From contig NZ_PVSS01000009.1 of the NCBI RefSeq assembly GCF_003025005.1, positions 124,242 through 188,241 on the forward strand: 64,000 nt of DNA, in the 5' to 3' direction. Numbering within the stretch: the stretch's first letter is position 1; every line of letters begins with the position of its first letter. Shown piece after piece: positions 6,154-55,365 of this stretch. The translations under genes and the position numbers were made by a program. This stretch comes from Brumimicrobium mesophilum (GTDB lineage Bacteria > Bacteroidota > Bacteroidia > Flavobacteriales_D > Crocinitomicaceae). The notes under the pieces are model-generated. The model searched no databases. It was not told the origin of the DNA and was given only the letters and a program-made list of their open reading frames with translations.

Positions 6154-6324
6154 CTTTCTATGTGATTTTGAAATGCTAAAATAACAACAATTTCGCAGAA
6201 CACTCCATTTAAAAGCTACCAAGACACTAGAATAATTCTATTTATCTTATACTTTATTGGGTTAAGTTCCAACCAAGGAATCCAATTAATTATTCTAAAT
6301 TTATGGATTGCAAAAACGAACAAG

Positions 6325-7422
6325 ATGATAAAACAAAAACTTTTGCTCTTTGGTTTCGGTATATGCATTTTTGCGCATACAGGAATTAGTCAAGAGCTTA
6401 CCGAGAAAGAACAAGCATACATGGATTCTATTTCAGCTCAGAATCAAGAAAATAGTACAACCGCCGCAAGTCAAGAGGCTTACAACAAAGGAATTGAGCT
6501 TTTTAAACAAAAATCATATTTAATGGCAGTTGCCTCTTTTGAAAAGTCTATACAATTGGATAATAATTTCACAGCTGCTTTTTATAATAAAGGAATTGCG
6601 GAGAATGAAGCTAAACTTTACGGAGAAGCAGCTAAAACCCTAAGTCAGCTCTTGAATAAAGACCCAAACTATTCTAAAGCTTATTTTCAACGTGCCAGAG
6701 CATATCAAGGGAGTTTGGAATATACAAAAGCAGAGGTTGATTATAAAAAATCAATTGAAATAGACCCTGAAAACCCAAATGCATATTACAACTACGGAAC
6801 ACTTCAATTCTTACAAAAAGAATATGACTATGCAATTCAGTCATTTACAACAGCGATAGAAAAAAACGGAAATTTAGCTTATGCATATAATGACAGAGCA
6901 AGTTGTCACCGAATGAAAGGAGACTATACTAAAGCAGTTGCCGATTATGAACAAGCAGAAAAGAAAAATCCAAATTTAGCTTTCGTATTGAACAATATTG
7001 GTACAACAAAAATGAAAATGAAAAACTATGATGGAGCTATTGCTGCATTCAACAGAGCAATTTCAATAGATCAGAATTTTCATTTAGCATATAACAATCG
7101 TGGAGCAACACAAATGGAACGCAATAAAATAGAGGAAGCATTATCTGATTTCGAAAAATGTGTGCAAATAAAAAGTGATTATGCTCCAGGGTTTGCAAAT
7201 ATTGCTGCTGCTAAATTTAAAAAAGAAGATTACAAAGGTGCTAAAATAGCTGCTGATAAGGCTATTCAATTAGACAAATCCTATGCGAGTGCTTATGTAA
7301 ATCGAGGAATGATAAATGAAATGTTGCGAGAAATGAATGCAGCATGTTCTGATTGGGAAAAAGCAAAAGAATTAGGCTCAGAAACCGGAGCGCAATATGC
7401 ATCACAAAATTGTGGATTTTAA
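6325..7422 (+). CDS. Exported TPR-repeat protein
   Basis: The 365-residue protein has a Sec signal peptide (about residues 1-23, ending ISQ) followed by roughly nine tetratricopeptide repeats from residue 48 to 350, with repeated A-x-x-x-Y/F-N-G/R spacing (AFYNKGIAENEAK, AYYNYGTLQF, AYNDRASCHR, AYNNRGATQM, AYVNRGMINE). TPR arrays are protein-binding scaffolds. It ends 11 bases before the OmpA-family gene and is very likely co-transcribed with it, so an envelope-assembly or gliding/T9SS accessory role is plausible but not shown. Confidence 0.8.
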   Translation: MIKQKLLLFGFGICIFAHTGISQELTEKEQAYMDSISAQNQENSTTAASQEAYNKGIELFKQKSYLMAVASFEKSIQLDNNFTAAFYNKGIAENEAKLYGEAAKTLSQLLNKDPNYSKAYFQRARAYQGSLEYTKAEVDYKKSIEIDPENPNAYYNYGTLQFLQKEYDYAIQSFTTAIEKNGNLAYAYNDRASCHRMKGDYTKAVADYEQAEKKNPNLAFVLNNIGTTKMKMKNYDGAIAAFNRAISIDQNFHLAYNNRGATQMERNKIEEALSDFEKCVQIKSDYAPGFANIAAAKFKKEDYKGAKIAADKAIQLDKSYASAYVNRGMINEMLREMNAACSDWEKAKELGSETGAQYASQNCGF

Positions 7423-7433
7423 AGAATACTAAT

Positions 7434-9509
7434 ATGAAAACATTAAAGAAATTTATTTTAATTAGCACTTTATTGATCAGCGGATTCTCAACAGCACAAA
7501 ACGTAGAGTTCAAACGCAGTAACTTCAAAGATGATACCGATGCATACAAAGAAGCTACGGATGCAATTGACAAAGGAACTACTCTATTTGAAGAAGGTTC
7601 ATTGGCTATTTTTGAAGTGAGAGATCCAGGTTTGACCTTCAAAAAAGCACTTATTGAATTTGAAATTGCTCAAAAACTCAATCCTGAAAACGCGTTAAAT
7701 AATTACAGAATTGGAGTTTGTTACATTCATTCTTCTACCCCATACAAAGCAATTCCATTTTTAGATAAAGCATACGCTTTGGATCCAGTTGCAGATCCAT
7801 TCCTATATTATTATCATGGTAACGCTAAGCAACTTGAAGAGAAATTTGATGAAGCCTTGGTTTCTTACAAGAAATTTGAAGAGAATTATAGAAAGTCGGA
7901 CAACTTCAACAAGTTTGTTACAATGCGAAAAAAAGAATGCGGATATGCTAAAAAATTTAAAGCAGAACCTGTTCGTGTATGGGTTGATAATGTTCAAGCA
8001 CTAAATACAGAATTTGACGAAATTGCACCAACGATTACAACTGATGGAGCAGAAATTATATTTAGCTCTAATCGACCTAATGAAAACAAACCAAATGTAG
8101 TTGGAGATTTTGACCACGACATCTATAGTTCATTTAACAATGATGGGACTTGGCAAAAAGCAAAGCCAATTTCTGGAAGTGTAAATTCAACTTTAGACGA
8201 CATTGTAAATAACTTGTCTTACGACGGAACAAAAATGCTTCTTCACAAAGATAACGAAGGGCAAATCGATATATATGAAACTATCTTAATGGGCTCGAAT
8301 TGGAGTACTCCAGAAATTATGCATCATCAAATTAGCACAAAACGAACGAATGACATGTATGCTTCCTATAATCACGATGGATACAACATATTTTTCGCTC
8401 GAGGGAATGAAAACCTGAGTAAAGGAACGAATATTATGTATGCTGGGAAACAAAGTTTAATGGATAAAAGTTATAGCACTGCAACTACAATCAATCAGGT
8501 AAATAGTCAATTTAATGATGGCCCTATCTACATGCACATTGATGGAAAAACAATGTATATTGCTTCTCAAGGCCACGAATCAATTGGTGGATATGATATA
8601 TTTGTATCGAAAAAGACTCAAGGAGGATGGTCAAAACCAGAAAATATGGGTTATCCAATCAATACTCCTTATGACGATTTCTTTTTTGCAGCAACAGCCA
8701 ATGGAAAATACGCTTACATTTCTTCAAATCGTCCAAATGGCCAAGGTGGTTTCGACATTTATAAAGTTACTTTTTGGGGAGCTCCTAAACATCCAATTGT
8801 CGATATGGAGGATTACTTATTAGCCTCGATTGCAGAACCAATTAAAGACCCTCAGATTGAAGAAGTAGTGAGTGTTAATAAAGTTTCATTGACCGTTTTT
8901 AAAGGAAAAACAATTGACGCATTAACTAGAAAAGCTGTTGAAGCCTCGATAGAAATTACAGACAATAAAAATGGTAAAATTATTGAGAGATTCACAACAA
9001 ACAGTGCAACTGGAAAGTTTCTCCTCTCTTTAACAGCTGGAAAAAACTATGGAATTGCTGTAAAAGCAGATGGATATTTATTCCATTCGGAAAACTTTGA
9101 TGTTCCAGAAGGAAGCGATTACAACCTTATCGACAAAACAATCAATCTGAAAAATATTGCCGTTGGAAGTAGAATTGCTTTGCGAAATATTTTCTTTGAT
9201 GTTGGAGAATCAATCTTAAGAAGTGAATCTAATGCAGAATTAGACAGGCTGGTAAATCTATTAAAAGAAGTTCCAACTTTAAAAGTTGAGATTTCAGGGC
9301 ATACCGACAATACAGGTTCTGCAACGATTAATGACAAGTTGTCTCAAGATAGAGCTGATGCAGTCGTGGTATACTTAAAGGGCAAAGGAATTTCAGCAGA
9401 CAGATTAACTTCGCAAGGGTATGGAGCTTCGAAACCAATTTCCAGTAACAATTCTTCACAAGGGAGACAAGAAAATAGAAGAACGGAGTTTGAAATTACT
9501 GCTAATTAA
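7434..9509 (+). CDS. PorE-like OmpA family protein (TPR, beta-propeller, regulatory-like and OmpA domains)
   Basis: The 691-residue protein begins at the ATG at 7434 with a Sec signal peptide (MKTLKKFILIS..., cleaved near residue 22). Domains in order are TPR-like helices (about 30-170), a WD40/PD40-type beta-propeller (about 190-465, with SSNRP and GGYDIF/GGFDIY blade motifs), a carboxypeptidase-regulatory-like beta domain (about 500-580) and a C-terminal OmpA peptidoglycan-binding domain (about 590-691, SGHTDNTG and RRTEFEI). This order is that of PorE, a T9SS accessory protein described in Porphyromonas gingivalis. Unlike PorE, no lipobox cysteine is visible. Bacteroidota hold several such proteins, so this may be a paralogue rather than PorE itself. 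Confidence 0.8.
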   Translation: MKTLKKFILISTLLISGFSTAQNVEFKRSNFKDDTDAYKEATDAIDKGTTLFEEGSLAIFEVRDPGLTFKKALIEFEIAQKLNPENALNNYRIGVCYIHSSTPYKAIPFLDKAYALDPVADPFLYYYHGNAKQLEEKFDEALVSYKKFEENYRKSDNFNKFVTMRKKECGYAKKFKAEPVRVWVDNVQALNTEFDEIAPTITTDGAEIIFSSNRPNENKPNVVGDFDHDIYSSFNNDGTWQKAKPISGSVNSTLDDIVNNLSYDGTKMLLHKDNEGQIDIYETILMGSNWSTPEIMHHQISTKRTNDMYASYNHDGYNIFFARGNENLSKGTNIMYAGKQSLMDKSYSTATTINQVNSQFNDGPIYMHIDGKTMYIASQGHESIGGYDIFVSKKTQGGWSKPENMGYPINTPYDDFFFAATANGKYAYISSNRPNGQGGFDIYKVTFWGAPKHPIVDMEDYLLASIAEPIKDPQIEEVVSVNKVSLTVFKGKTIDALTRKAVEASIEITDNKNGKIIERFTTNSATGKFLLSLTAGKNYGIAVKADGYLFHSENFDVPEGSDYNLIDKTINLKNIAVGSRIALRNIFFDVGESILRSESNAELDRLVNLLKEVPTLKVEISGHTDNTGSATINDKLSQDRADAVVVYLKGKGISADRLTSQGYGASKPISSNNSSQGRQENRRTEFEITAN

Positions 9510-52142: not shown

Positions 52143-52922
52143 TTAAATAGCTAAAATAGCTAGCCCTACTCCAACTAAAAGACTAACAAGCTTAATAAAG
52201 TTGAATTTGTGGTTTTCAGAAGATTCAAAAATAATGGTTGTAGAGATATGTAAGAACATCCCTACTACAATTGCTAAAATTATTTCTAAATTCAAAAGGG
52301 CATTCTCAGCTCCATAATGCCCAACCAACATCCCTAAAGGAGCCATCAAAGCAAAAACAACTAACACCAGCCATGCTTTTGCCATTTTAAAACCAGAAGC
52401 TAGTAACAAAGTCATCAAAGCAATTGCAACTGGAATTTTATGCAAAATAATACCTAAAAGCAAACCTTGAACACCTTCTCCCTTTGAATGGTCATAGTGG
52501 TGATTATGACCAATATGTTCAATATGATCGACAATTTGTCCACCTGCCTCTCTCACAAACTGTGCTTCAAGAGGCATACCCTCGAAAAAAGAATGAAAAC
52601 TAAGTGCTATAAATAAAGACCAAGGAACAGTACCTTTCGTATCTTTTGCATGAATATGCCCATGCTCTATTCCTCCAGAAAAATACTCAAGAAATAATTG
52701 AATAAGGAATCCCAATAAAATATAGTAACCTATACCACTAGAACCATGAGCATAAATTTCAGGAATGAAATGAATAAATGCAATTGCTAAAAGAAATCCG
52801 CCACTTAACGAAAGTAACACTTTTATAATTTTCCCTTTGTTTAGGTTCTGTAAAAACACAACTAAACCTCCCCCCAATAGCACTGAGGCTACCAAAAAGA
52901 TCGTTCCCCAAATTAGACTCAT
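52143..52922 (-). CDS. ZIP family metal transporter
   Basis: The 259-residue membrane protein has the ZIP fold of eight membrane helices, with TM4 LSFHSFFEGMPLEAQ and TM5 GIILHKIPVAIALM carrying the H-x3-E and H-x3-A metal-path motifs, and a cytosolic His-rich loop (EHIEHIGHNHHYDH type, about 135-150). It moves Zn2+ or related divalent metals into the cytosol. The ATG overlaps the upstream methyltransferase stop (ATGA), so it is translated from the same mRNA. Confidence 0.9.
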   Translation of the reverse strand: MSLIWGTIFLVASVLLGGGLVVFLQNLNKGKIIKVLLSLSGGFLLAIAFIHFIPEIYAHGSSGIGYYILLGFLIQLFLEYFSGGIEHGHIHAKDTKGTVPWSLFIALSFHSFFEGMPLEAQFVREAGGQIVDHIEHIGHNHHYDHSKGEGVQGLLLGIILHKIPVAIALMTLLLASGFKMAKAWLVLVVFALMAPLGMLVGHYGAENALLNLEIILAIVVGMFLHISTTIIFESSENHKFNFIKLVSLLVGVGLAILAI

Positions 52923-53659
52923 TTTTTCTTGGCAATAATTATTAATCGGTCAGACTCACTTCGGTTGAACGGGGATAAAGAAAAATCGCCAAAAACATCA
53001 ATTATGTCAAATCCGGCTTTTTTTAATAAATCTTCAAATTCTTCTTTTTTTATGGCTTGAACTCTTTCTTGAAAATGACAATCCTTCCCATTATCTGAAA
53101 AATCGATACTTTTAAAGATGTGATTACCATCATATGACCTAGTAATCCTAAAATCAATTCCATCTAAAGATTTCACTTCTTTTTCTACCAAATGGTCTAA
53201 AACAAAATCAGCATTCATAAAATCAATAACAACAATTCCCTCCTCCACAAGCATTTCATGAATGGAAAGAAGGACCTTTAGGTTATCATCATAATTATCG
53301 AAATAACCAAAGCTTGTAAACAGATTAAACACAACATCAAAAGTATCTTTCTGATATACTTTCCTCATATCATGCGTATCAAATGAAAGCGTATCATTCT
53401 CAAATGGTTTTGCTTCTTGAATACTATTCTCAGACAAATCTACTCCAGTAACTTTTAAACCCTTTTTATTCAAAAAAACAGAATGTCTTCCTTTTCCACA
53501 AGCTAAATCCAGGCAGCTAACTTCTGTAGGTAAGTTCAAATAATTCAAAAGATTATTAATAAATCTTTCCGCTTCCGAAAAATCTCTATTTTGATATAAA
53601 ATATGGTAGTAAGAGGTATCAAACCAAGTCTCAAACCACTCCCCTTTTTGCTCGTTCAT
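52919..53659 (-). CDS. Class I SAM-dependent methyltransferase
   Basis: The 246-residue protein has a SAM motif I VSCLDLACGKGRHSVFL, motif II VTGVDLSENSIQEA, FDVVFNLFTSFGYFD and a Methyltransf_25-type fold. The substrate is unknown. It overlaps the ZIP transporter by four bases on the minus strand. Confidence 0.88.
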   Translation of the reverse strand: MNEQKGEWFETWFDTSYYHILYQNRDFSEAERFINNLLNYLNLPTEVSCLDLACGKGRHSVFLNKKGLKVTGVDLSENSIQEAKPFENDTLSFDTHDMRKVYQKDTFDVVFNLFTSFGYFDNYDDNLKVLLSIHEMLVEEGIVVIDFMNADFVLDHLVEKEVKSLDGIDFRITRSYDGNHIFKSIDFSDNGKDCHFQERVQAIKKEEFEDLLKKAGFDIIDVFGDFSLSPFNRSESDRLIIIAKKK

Positions 53660-53762: not shown

Positions 53763-53792
53763 TTGTCTATGTTATACAAAATCATATATTTG
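53763..53792 (+). promoter_or_regulatory. Near-consensus promoter of siaB-siaC-coaE
   Basis: TTG (53763-53765), 19 bases, then TATATTTG (53785-53792) is a full match to the Bacteroidota promoter; the ATG at 53823 is 30 bases away. Confidence 0.8.
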
Positions 53793-53822
53793 TATAAGTT
53801 ACATTGAAATAATTTGAAGAAC

Positions 53823-54386
53823 ATGTCTTTAAACAGCATATACGAACTTTATCAAACCATGGAGCGCGACCATGCAATGGTTTCGTTTAAAGGAGAGGTT
53901 ACTGCTGATTTATTGAATTCAGTACTTCAAATTATGGAATCTAAACTTGGAATACTCGAAAAATCAACAAGAACTAGAAAAAAGGTTTACAATGTTTTGG
54001 TCGAGTGTTTACAAAATTTATATCATCATAACGATGGGATTGGGTCATTTAGAGAGCAAAGTTTCTCAGATATATATTTACCAAAAACTTCAATCTTAAT
54101 CATATCAAATCCTGATGACTATTATGAAGTAAAAACTGGAAATTTTGTAAGTTTAACCAAGGTAAAACAATTAGAAGAAAAAATAGAGAATATTAATAAT
54201 TTAAACAGGCTACAGTTGAGAGAGCTATATAAAAGTATATTATTTAAAGGCGAGATGTCACAAAAAGGAACGGCAGGACTTGGATTAATTGACATCGCCA
54301 GAAAATCAGGGAATAAATTAGAATATAGTTTTTTACCAATTGATGAAAATTTTAGTTTCTTTTGTTTAAACGTGAAAATCAATTAA
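53823..54386 (+). CDS. SiaB-type serine/threonine kinase
   Basis: The 187-residue protein matches the SiaB family of HATPase-fold kinases (DUF6272): an N-terminal four-helix part, the N-box LVECLQNLYHHNDG that binds Mg-ATP, and the G-box GTAGLGLIDIARKSG. In Pseudomonas SiaB phosphorylates SiaC on a Thr. The ATG at 53823 is chosen over a TTG three codons upstream. It lies five bases before the SiaC-like gene. The companions SiaA (phosphatase) and SiaD (diguanylate cyclase) are absent from this window. Confidence 0.85.
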   Translation: MSLNSIYELYQTMERDHAMVSFKGEVTADLLNSVLQIMESKLGILEKSTRTRKKVYNVLVECLQNLYHHNDGIGSFREQSFSDIYLPKTSILIISNPDDYYEVKTGNFVSLTKVKQLEEKIENINNLNRLQLRELYKSILFKGEMSQKGTAGLGLIDIARKSGNKLEYSFLPIDENFSFFCLNVKIN

Positions 54387-54391
54387 ATAAT

Positions 54392-54775
54392 ATGGAGAAT
54401 ATCAACTTAGGCGGTACACCCAAAACACCAAGTGTTAATTTTAATTGCGAAAATGGAGTAATTGAATTAAAAGGGAGATCTATTCCTGAAAACTCCGTTG
54501 AGTTTTATAAGCCATTAAACAACTGGATTGAAAAATATGGTGAGAACCCTCAAAAAACAACCGTTTTTGAGGTTAAATTAGAGTACTTTAATACTTCTTC
54601 TTCAAAATGTTTATTGGATATTTTCAAAATACTAGAATCCATCAATGGTACTGCAACAGAAGTTAAAGTAAAGTGGTATTTCGAAAAAGATGACGGGGAT
54701 ATGCAAGAAGCAGGAGAAGATTATCAAGCCCTTATTCCACTACCTTTTATAATGATAGAAGTCGAAGAAATTTAA
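54392..54775 (+). CDS. SiaC-type regulatory phosphoprotein (DUF1987)
   Basis: The 127-residue protein has the DUF1987/SiaC layout: GGTPKTPSVNF, the GRSIPENSVEFYKPLNNWI motif and YFNTSSSKCLLDIFK, with Thr68 in the place of the Thr phosphorylated in Pseudomonas SiaC. Start is the ATG at 54392. Unphosphorylated SiaC-type proteins bind and switch a partner; the partner here is unknown. It lies between siaB-type and coaE genes with five-base gaps on each side. Confidence 0.85.
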   Translation: MENINLGGTPKTPSVNFNCENGVIELKGRSIPENSVEFYKPLNNWIEKYGENPQKTTVFEVKLEYFNTSSSKCLLDIFKILESINGTATEVKVKWYFEKDDGDMQEAGEDYQALIPLPFIMIEVEEI

Positions 54776-54780
54776 TTGAG

Positions 54781-55365
54781 GTGAAAAAAATAGGAATAGC
54801 AGGTGGTATAGGCTCTGGAAAGTCGATAATTTCTGAGGTTTTAAAAACAATGGGGTACCCAGTATTCAATTCGGACGATGAAGCTAAATTGTTAATGGTA
54901 AAAAATCCTGAAGTTGTTCAAAAAATCAAGTCTATTTTTGGAGATGAGGCATATAATGGCAAGGAACTCAACAAACCTTTTTTAGCCAAAAAAATTTTCA
55001 ATAACTTAGATTTAAAATCAGAATTAAATAAAATTGTTCATCCAGCAGTTAGAAAAGCCTTTGTTGATTGGGCTGAAATTCAAAGTTCAAGTTTAGTTTT
55101 TAATGAAGCTGCTATACTTTTTGAAACCGGAGCATACAAATCATTTGACTTTACTGTTCTTGTCACTGCACCAGAAAAGGTAAGAATAGAACGCGTCGTT
55201 TCTAGGGACAATTCAACTGAAACAGAAGTTAAGCAAAGAATGAAGAATCAATGGAAAGACGACATTAAAATAGAAATGGCATCATTTGTTATTTTAAACG
55301 ACAACTCGACCTTAGTTACACCTCAAGTAATGGAAATGACAAGTTTATTTAATAAGGCTATTTAA
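54781..55365 (+). CDS. coaE: Dephospho-CoA kinase (GTG start)
   Basis: The 194-residue P-loop kinase has GIAGGIGSGKS at the N-terminus, a DxD-like NSDDEAK and the lid region VVSRDNSTETEVKQRMKNQ. It performs the last step of coenzyme A synthesis. It begins with GTG at 54781, five bases after the SiaC-type gene, and its 3' end overlaps the convergent membrane-protein gene by eight bases. Confidence 0.94.
   Translation: MKKIGIAGGIGSGKSIISEVLKTMGYPVFNSDDEAKLLMVKNPEVVQKIKSIFGDEAYNGKELNKPFLAKKIFNNLDLKSELNKIVHPAVRKAFVDWAEIQSSSLVFNEAAILFETGAYKSFDFTVLVTAPEKVRIERVVSRDNSTETEVKQRMKNQWKDDIKIEMASFVILNDNSTLVTPQVMEMTSLFNKAI

Follow-up and report, generated by a model that had tools for sequence, protein, structure and literature searches.

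The SiaB/SiaC pair is known as an on/off switch from biofilm control in Pseudomonas, and to our knowledge the only role described for SiaC so far is to activate one diguanylate cyclase. Genes of the same type are found in Brumimicrobium mesophilum, a marine-type bacterium of the Bacteroidota, where they are directly followed by coaE, the gene for dephospho-CoA kinase. What does such a switch control, and what resets it? An initial annotation of the window (the whole 64,000-nucleotide stretch analysed here) listed the kinase and the phosphoprotein as the sole components, with no SiaA or SiaD, and proposed an undescribed signalling switch fused into a coaE operon. No paper on SiaB or SiaC in Bacteroidota was found in the literature searched, most subscription journals lying outside its scope.

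All three genes are read from the same strand. The first, siaB (53823-54386, +), encodes a GHKL protein kinase of the SiaB family (187 aa) and starts with ATG, an in-frame TTG lying ahead of it at 53814. It is followed by siaC (54392-54775, +), which encodes a SiaC-family phosphoprotein of 127 aa with its phosphosite at T68, and by coaE (54781-55365, +), whose product of 194 aa starts with GTG. The one-strand siaB-siaC-coaE order thus stands as annotated, as separate adjacent genes rather than as a fusion, and the five-base gaps are exact at both junctions (54387-54391 and 54776-54780). CoaE carries a Walker A motif (GGIGSGKS, residues 8-15), matches PF01121 at 133.5 bits (cut-off 27, E 8.4e-39) and TIGR00152 above cut-off, and its domain scan gives no domain besides CoaE. 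The near-consensus promoter does not survive: as a sigma-70 site it scores 9/12, and this reading was dropped since the 16 such sites counted in the region lie within the range of shuffled sequence (12.1 +/- 4.4). The Bacteroidota -7 consensus is TAnnTTTG, and a promoter of this type spans 53763-53792 (+), where TATATTTG (53785-53792) fits the consensus and is preceded, across 19 bases, by TTG (53763-53765). Because 50 of the 52 orthologous intergenic regions ahead of siaB contain TAnnTTTG, with 5.4 expected from shuffles, the operon is predicted to start at this box, its conservation being the best evidence for the start. On the other side of the promoter, a class I methyltransferase gene (52919-53659, -; Methyltransf_23/25) is divergent from siaB, as it is in most loci of the family and likewise in other families; it is taken as a conserved neighbour and is not counted as a component of the switch.

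The family assignments are clear. SiaB matches the SiaB family kinase model NF038262 at 146.9 bits (curated cut-off 85, E 4.2e-43) as well as PF19788 (E 3.2e-37), and SiaC matches PF09345 at 142.6 bits (gathering cut-off 24.5, E 5.8e-42). Both miss the equivalog models, with 76.2 bits for biofilm kinase SiaB (NF038264, threshold 225) and 95.3 bits for biofilm phosphoprotein SiaC (NF038265, threshold 150), and are therefore members of the families rather than equivalogs of the P. aeruginosa biofilm proteins. SiaC aligns nearly over its full length with P. aeruginosa SiaC (6kko, 6k4f; E 3.3e-17). Its T68 falls on P. aeruginosa T68 (YFNTSSSK / YLNTSSIK) and is invariant in 31/31 orthologues, in agreement with its annotation as the known phosphosite; in the named loci, position 68 is Thr in 76 and Ser in 5 of 81 SiaC proteins. 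SiaB can be aligned to its counterpart in the SiaB-SiaC crystal structure (6kko, sequence E 4.6e-12), which is also the first match to its predicted fold (E 4.7e-12); SpoIIAB and RsbW come up among the following fold matches. There is no loss of kinase-active residues: E61, N65 and the AGLG G-box are kept in 31/31 orthologues and are also found in P. aeruginosa SiaB, where Glu61 is the predicted catalytic residue (PMC7647112).

The output was approached through the genome that contains the window (3.88 Mb, 99.8% complete) and a draw of 100 genomes of Crocinitomicaceae, the family to which the named relatives of SiaC belong (Brumimicrobium, Crocinitomix, and Fluviicola). SiaC-family proteins are present in 88 of the 100, and the coaE-adjacent form, hereafter SiaC1 and operationally defined by a best E-value < 1e-37, in 73. 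GGDEF matches over cut-off occur in 4 of the 100, and a search of the whole 3.88-Mb genome gives no GGDEF match. This bears out the annotated rarity of c-di-GMP enzymes, the absence of SiaD, and the idea that the output partner must differ from the usual diguanylate cyclase. In nearer families, many named loci have a recurrent gene next to siaBC, placed either downstream of it or convergent with it. Its product, which we call TABC, is an ABC-2 exporter (ABC_tran, ABC2_membrane; about 1020 aa). Within Crocinitomicaceae, 65 well-assembled genomes have SiaC1, and 55 of these encode TABC, versus 0 of the 19 without SiaC1. Since TABC is never found without SiaC1 and often adjoins it, this exporter is the likely output of SiaC in the relatives. 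TABC is absent from the window's genome and from two close relatives (G006 and G056); all three still encode SiaB, SiaC, and a single SpoIIE protein beyond a common 412-aa type, and a different SiaC effector is therefore expected there. The first 280 residues of TABC are predicted to combine a helical with an FHA-like part, a lead only at a fold E of 0.02 or worse. At that value, and with the Arg/Ser/His/Asn phosphothreonine-binding residues not evident by eye, we do not claim the FHA-like region as a reader of phospho-T68. A stretch of TABC that resembles the SiaD stalk (residues 503-567 of the L166 copy, E 0.0036) is taken as chance.

The effector could instead be a diguanylate cyclase or a SiaD-stalk protein that escaped detection in the window's genome. 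Other families of the Bacteroidota do have a SiaD-like stalk after siaC (L071-L083), joined, as read from the sequences, to GGDEF (L072, L075), histidine kinase (L077, L078), PP2C (L080), or membrane segments (L071), or standing alone (L081-L083). Each of these stalks is recovered by a leave-one-out profile made from the rest (E 9e-12 to 4e-27), and the profile matches solved SiaD weakly (E 0.047). However, the window's genome has no GGDEF protein, and the stalk profile finds no match in it, in a search that is weak because short coiled coils diverge fast. We consider such a hidden partner unlikely.

The other candidate is the neighbour itself. In the best 30 loci the order siaB-siaC-coaE is found in 30/30, with siaC/coaE gaps of -14 to 80 bases, and in 20 loci from other genera (one of which repeats an earlier locus) siaC and coaE are adjacent in 18, making 47 of 49 distinct family loci in 20 genera. 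The two loci without this adjacency both come from genus g2 (L219, L220), which has a PP2C-siaB-siaC-TABC operon. In genus g13 (L221, L222), siaB is absent, a MutS-like gene precedes siaC-coaE, and T68 is kept. The gene order is thus conserved in Crocinitomicaceae but not across Bacteroidota, siaBC being usually not beside coaE outside the family. A SiaC profile finds a match in 14 of 247 genomes of the phylum, a thin draw; many Bacteroidales and Flavobacteriales appear in the named scan. An adjacency with such small gaps, kept even amid differing other neighbours, would fit a CoaE tuned directly by the phosphorylation state of SiaC, tying CoA supply to the sensed signal, and the authors of the SiaC-SiaD structure proposed for DUF1987 proteins a role in modulating adjacent ones (PMC8457831). 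Yet most other families have siaBC without coaE, and genus g2 has TABC as the neighbour instead. Moreover, P. aeruginosa SiaC targets the SiaD stalk (PMC8457831), to which CoaE, with no extra domain, offers no counterpart, and CoA synthesis must presumably continue in genomes without siaBC. Direct control of CoaE is thus rather improbable. We favour coaE as a co-transcribed passenger, probably kept for expression reasons rather than as a target, and the long-kept siaC-coaE adjacency may reflect co-expression.

The window's genome encodes two SpoIIE-type PP2C proteins, of 412 and 1441 aa. The larger (contig 45, about 120257-124582, -) combines propeller repeats, Y_Y_Y, PAS, and SpoIIE/PP2C domains and is predicted to have several membrane segments, its hydrophobic stretches falling within residues 734-933. 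The best solved match of its PP2C domain (residues 1195-1441) is SiaA (6k4e, E 1.6e-26), about twenty orders of magnitude ahead of the next one (E 1.2e-5), and the metal-binding motifs SGDFFW, DCTGHG, SDG, and TDDIT are intact. SiaA is therefore not missing: a phosphatase of its type is encoded in trans, by a gene on another contig, unlinked to siaBC. A SiaA homologue thus probably acts with the pair from elsewhere in the genome, and no SiaD homologue does. The 412-aa protein was rejected as the partner phosphatase: it occurs in 94 of the 100 family genomes, those without siaC included, and its PP2C is not SiaA-like, its best solved relatives being of other types (Rv1364c, E 6.3e-10; SiaA, E 8.7e-4).

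The distribution of these phosphatases follows that of siaBC. When SpoIIE proteins beyond the 412-aa type are counted in each family genome, at least one is present in 72 of the 73 genomes with SiaC1 and none in 20 of the 27 without (p 3e-14, ignoring kinship). Among genomes at least 90% complete, 64 have both and 18 neither, with two exceptions (64/1/1/18; p 4e-16, ignoring kinship): G098 has siaBC without a further SpoIIE protein, and G030 a further SpoIIE protein without SiaC1. On a tree of 76 genomes made from the 412-aa protein alone, SiaC1 is missing from 11 separate clades, and 10 of these also lack any further SpoIIE protein. All 20 further PP2Cs sampled from 13 genomes are SiaA-like (87-145 bits), as compared with no match to 50 bits for the 412-aa type. 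In one genus of the family (g2), PP2C, siaB, and siaC share a single operon, and PP2C-siaB-siaC operons exist in other families as well. We read the matching losses on the tree as functional dependence: their loss together about ten times suggests that siaBC and the SiaA-type phosphatases form one functional unit with an output other than c-di-GMP. The association is correlational, and both could go with a third thing. The initial reading of a stand-alone SiaB/SiaC switch without a phosphatase, a wholly undescribed signalling logic drawn from an operon and vicinity that hold no phosphatase gene, is very improbable, given that the genome encodes a SiaA-type PP2C on another contig and that such phosphatases were lost with siaBC in about ten clades. 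The claim that the module is reduced to its kinase and phosphoprotein falls on the same two points, and what remains of the undescribed switch is a SiaD-less phospho-switch in a conserved operon.

The locus is most probably part of a SiaABC-type switch with its sensor phosphatase in trans and no SiaD, serving TABC, the most likely output, in relatives and another effector here. SiaB would phosphorylate SiaC at T68, and the 1441-aa membrane sensor phosphatase of the SiaA type would strip this phosphate upon its signal. In one of its two states, by analogy the dephosphorylated state, SiaC would then bind and switch an effector other than SiaD. In relatives this effector would most likely be the TABC encoded beside siaBC; in the window's genome, which is without TABC, SiaC would serve a different one. 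As in P. aeruginosa SiaABCD (PMC7647112, PMC8457831), there is a SiaB kinase, a SiaC with T68, and a SiaA-type PP2C, with key residues and folds kept; unlike there, the PP2C is in trans on a propeller/PAS sensor, there is no SiaD or GGDEF protein, and the operon continues from siaB-siaC into coaE. The arrangement of a GHKL kinase, a small phosphoprotein, and a PP2C-type phosphatase is shared with SpoIIAB/SpoIIAA and RsbW/RsbV with SpoIIE/RsbU, but SiaC is a DUF1987 protein (PF09345), related to STAS by structure only (PMC8457831), and no sigma factor is linked. Other Bacteroidota SiaABC operons have the same types of SiaB and SiaC, often beside a PP2C; siaC is adjoined there by GGDEF, histidine kinase, PP2C, or ABC-2 exporter genes, whereas here it is adjoined by coaE.

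Some genomes of the family carry this arrangement much further. G003 and G025 each have at least 29 SpoIIE proteins (the 412-aa one included, and tallied as a whole rather than individually typed as SiaA-like) with one SiaB and two SiaC, of which the second (L093, L107) has Ile at position 68. We tentatively put forward, as a possibility somewhat short of even, that SiaA-type sensor phosphatases, as many as 28 or more per genome, converge on a single SiaC and through it on a non-c-di-GMP effector: the ABC-2 exporter with its FHA-like region in most species, and another effector in the window's lineage. The SiaABC core is widespread in a family nearly without c-di-GMP enzymes, and it often combines numerous sensor phosphatases with just one phosphorylatable SiaC. 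This makes it testable what DUF1987/SiaC proteins control beyond c-di-GMP, with TABC as a named candidate.

Outside the window, the genome also holds second copies of both SiaB and SiaC, and partners may thus be mixed. In the second SiaC (6158-6556 of locus L007, contig 67), residue 68 is Asn, and in nearly all relatives (L089-L108) it is Ile; with its phosphosite lost, this protein looks permanently unphosphorylated. Its neighbourhood is conserved and consists of genes for a BadF-type ATPase, the second SiaC, an OmpH-like protein, and DUF4924. The second SiaB (7314-7934 of locus L008, contig 12; relatives L110-L122) adjoins the gene of a large protein in most relatives read, which in the window's genome is a type IX secreted protein with SprB repeats and CHU_C, at the contig end. 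This SiaB is present even in genomes without any SiaC. Paralogous clusters also occur (L123, L102, L070), in which one SiaC is accompanied by a pair of SiaB-like genes or by a double SiaB of ~355 aa. In Bacteroidales (L206, L213, L217), siaBC often follows genes for a NadR-like kinase and an RlmL-like methyltransferase, as read from sequence only.
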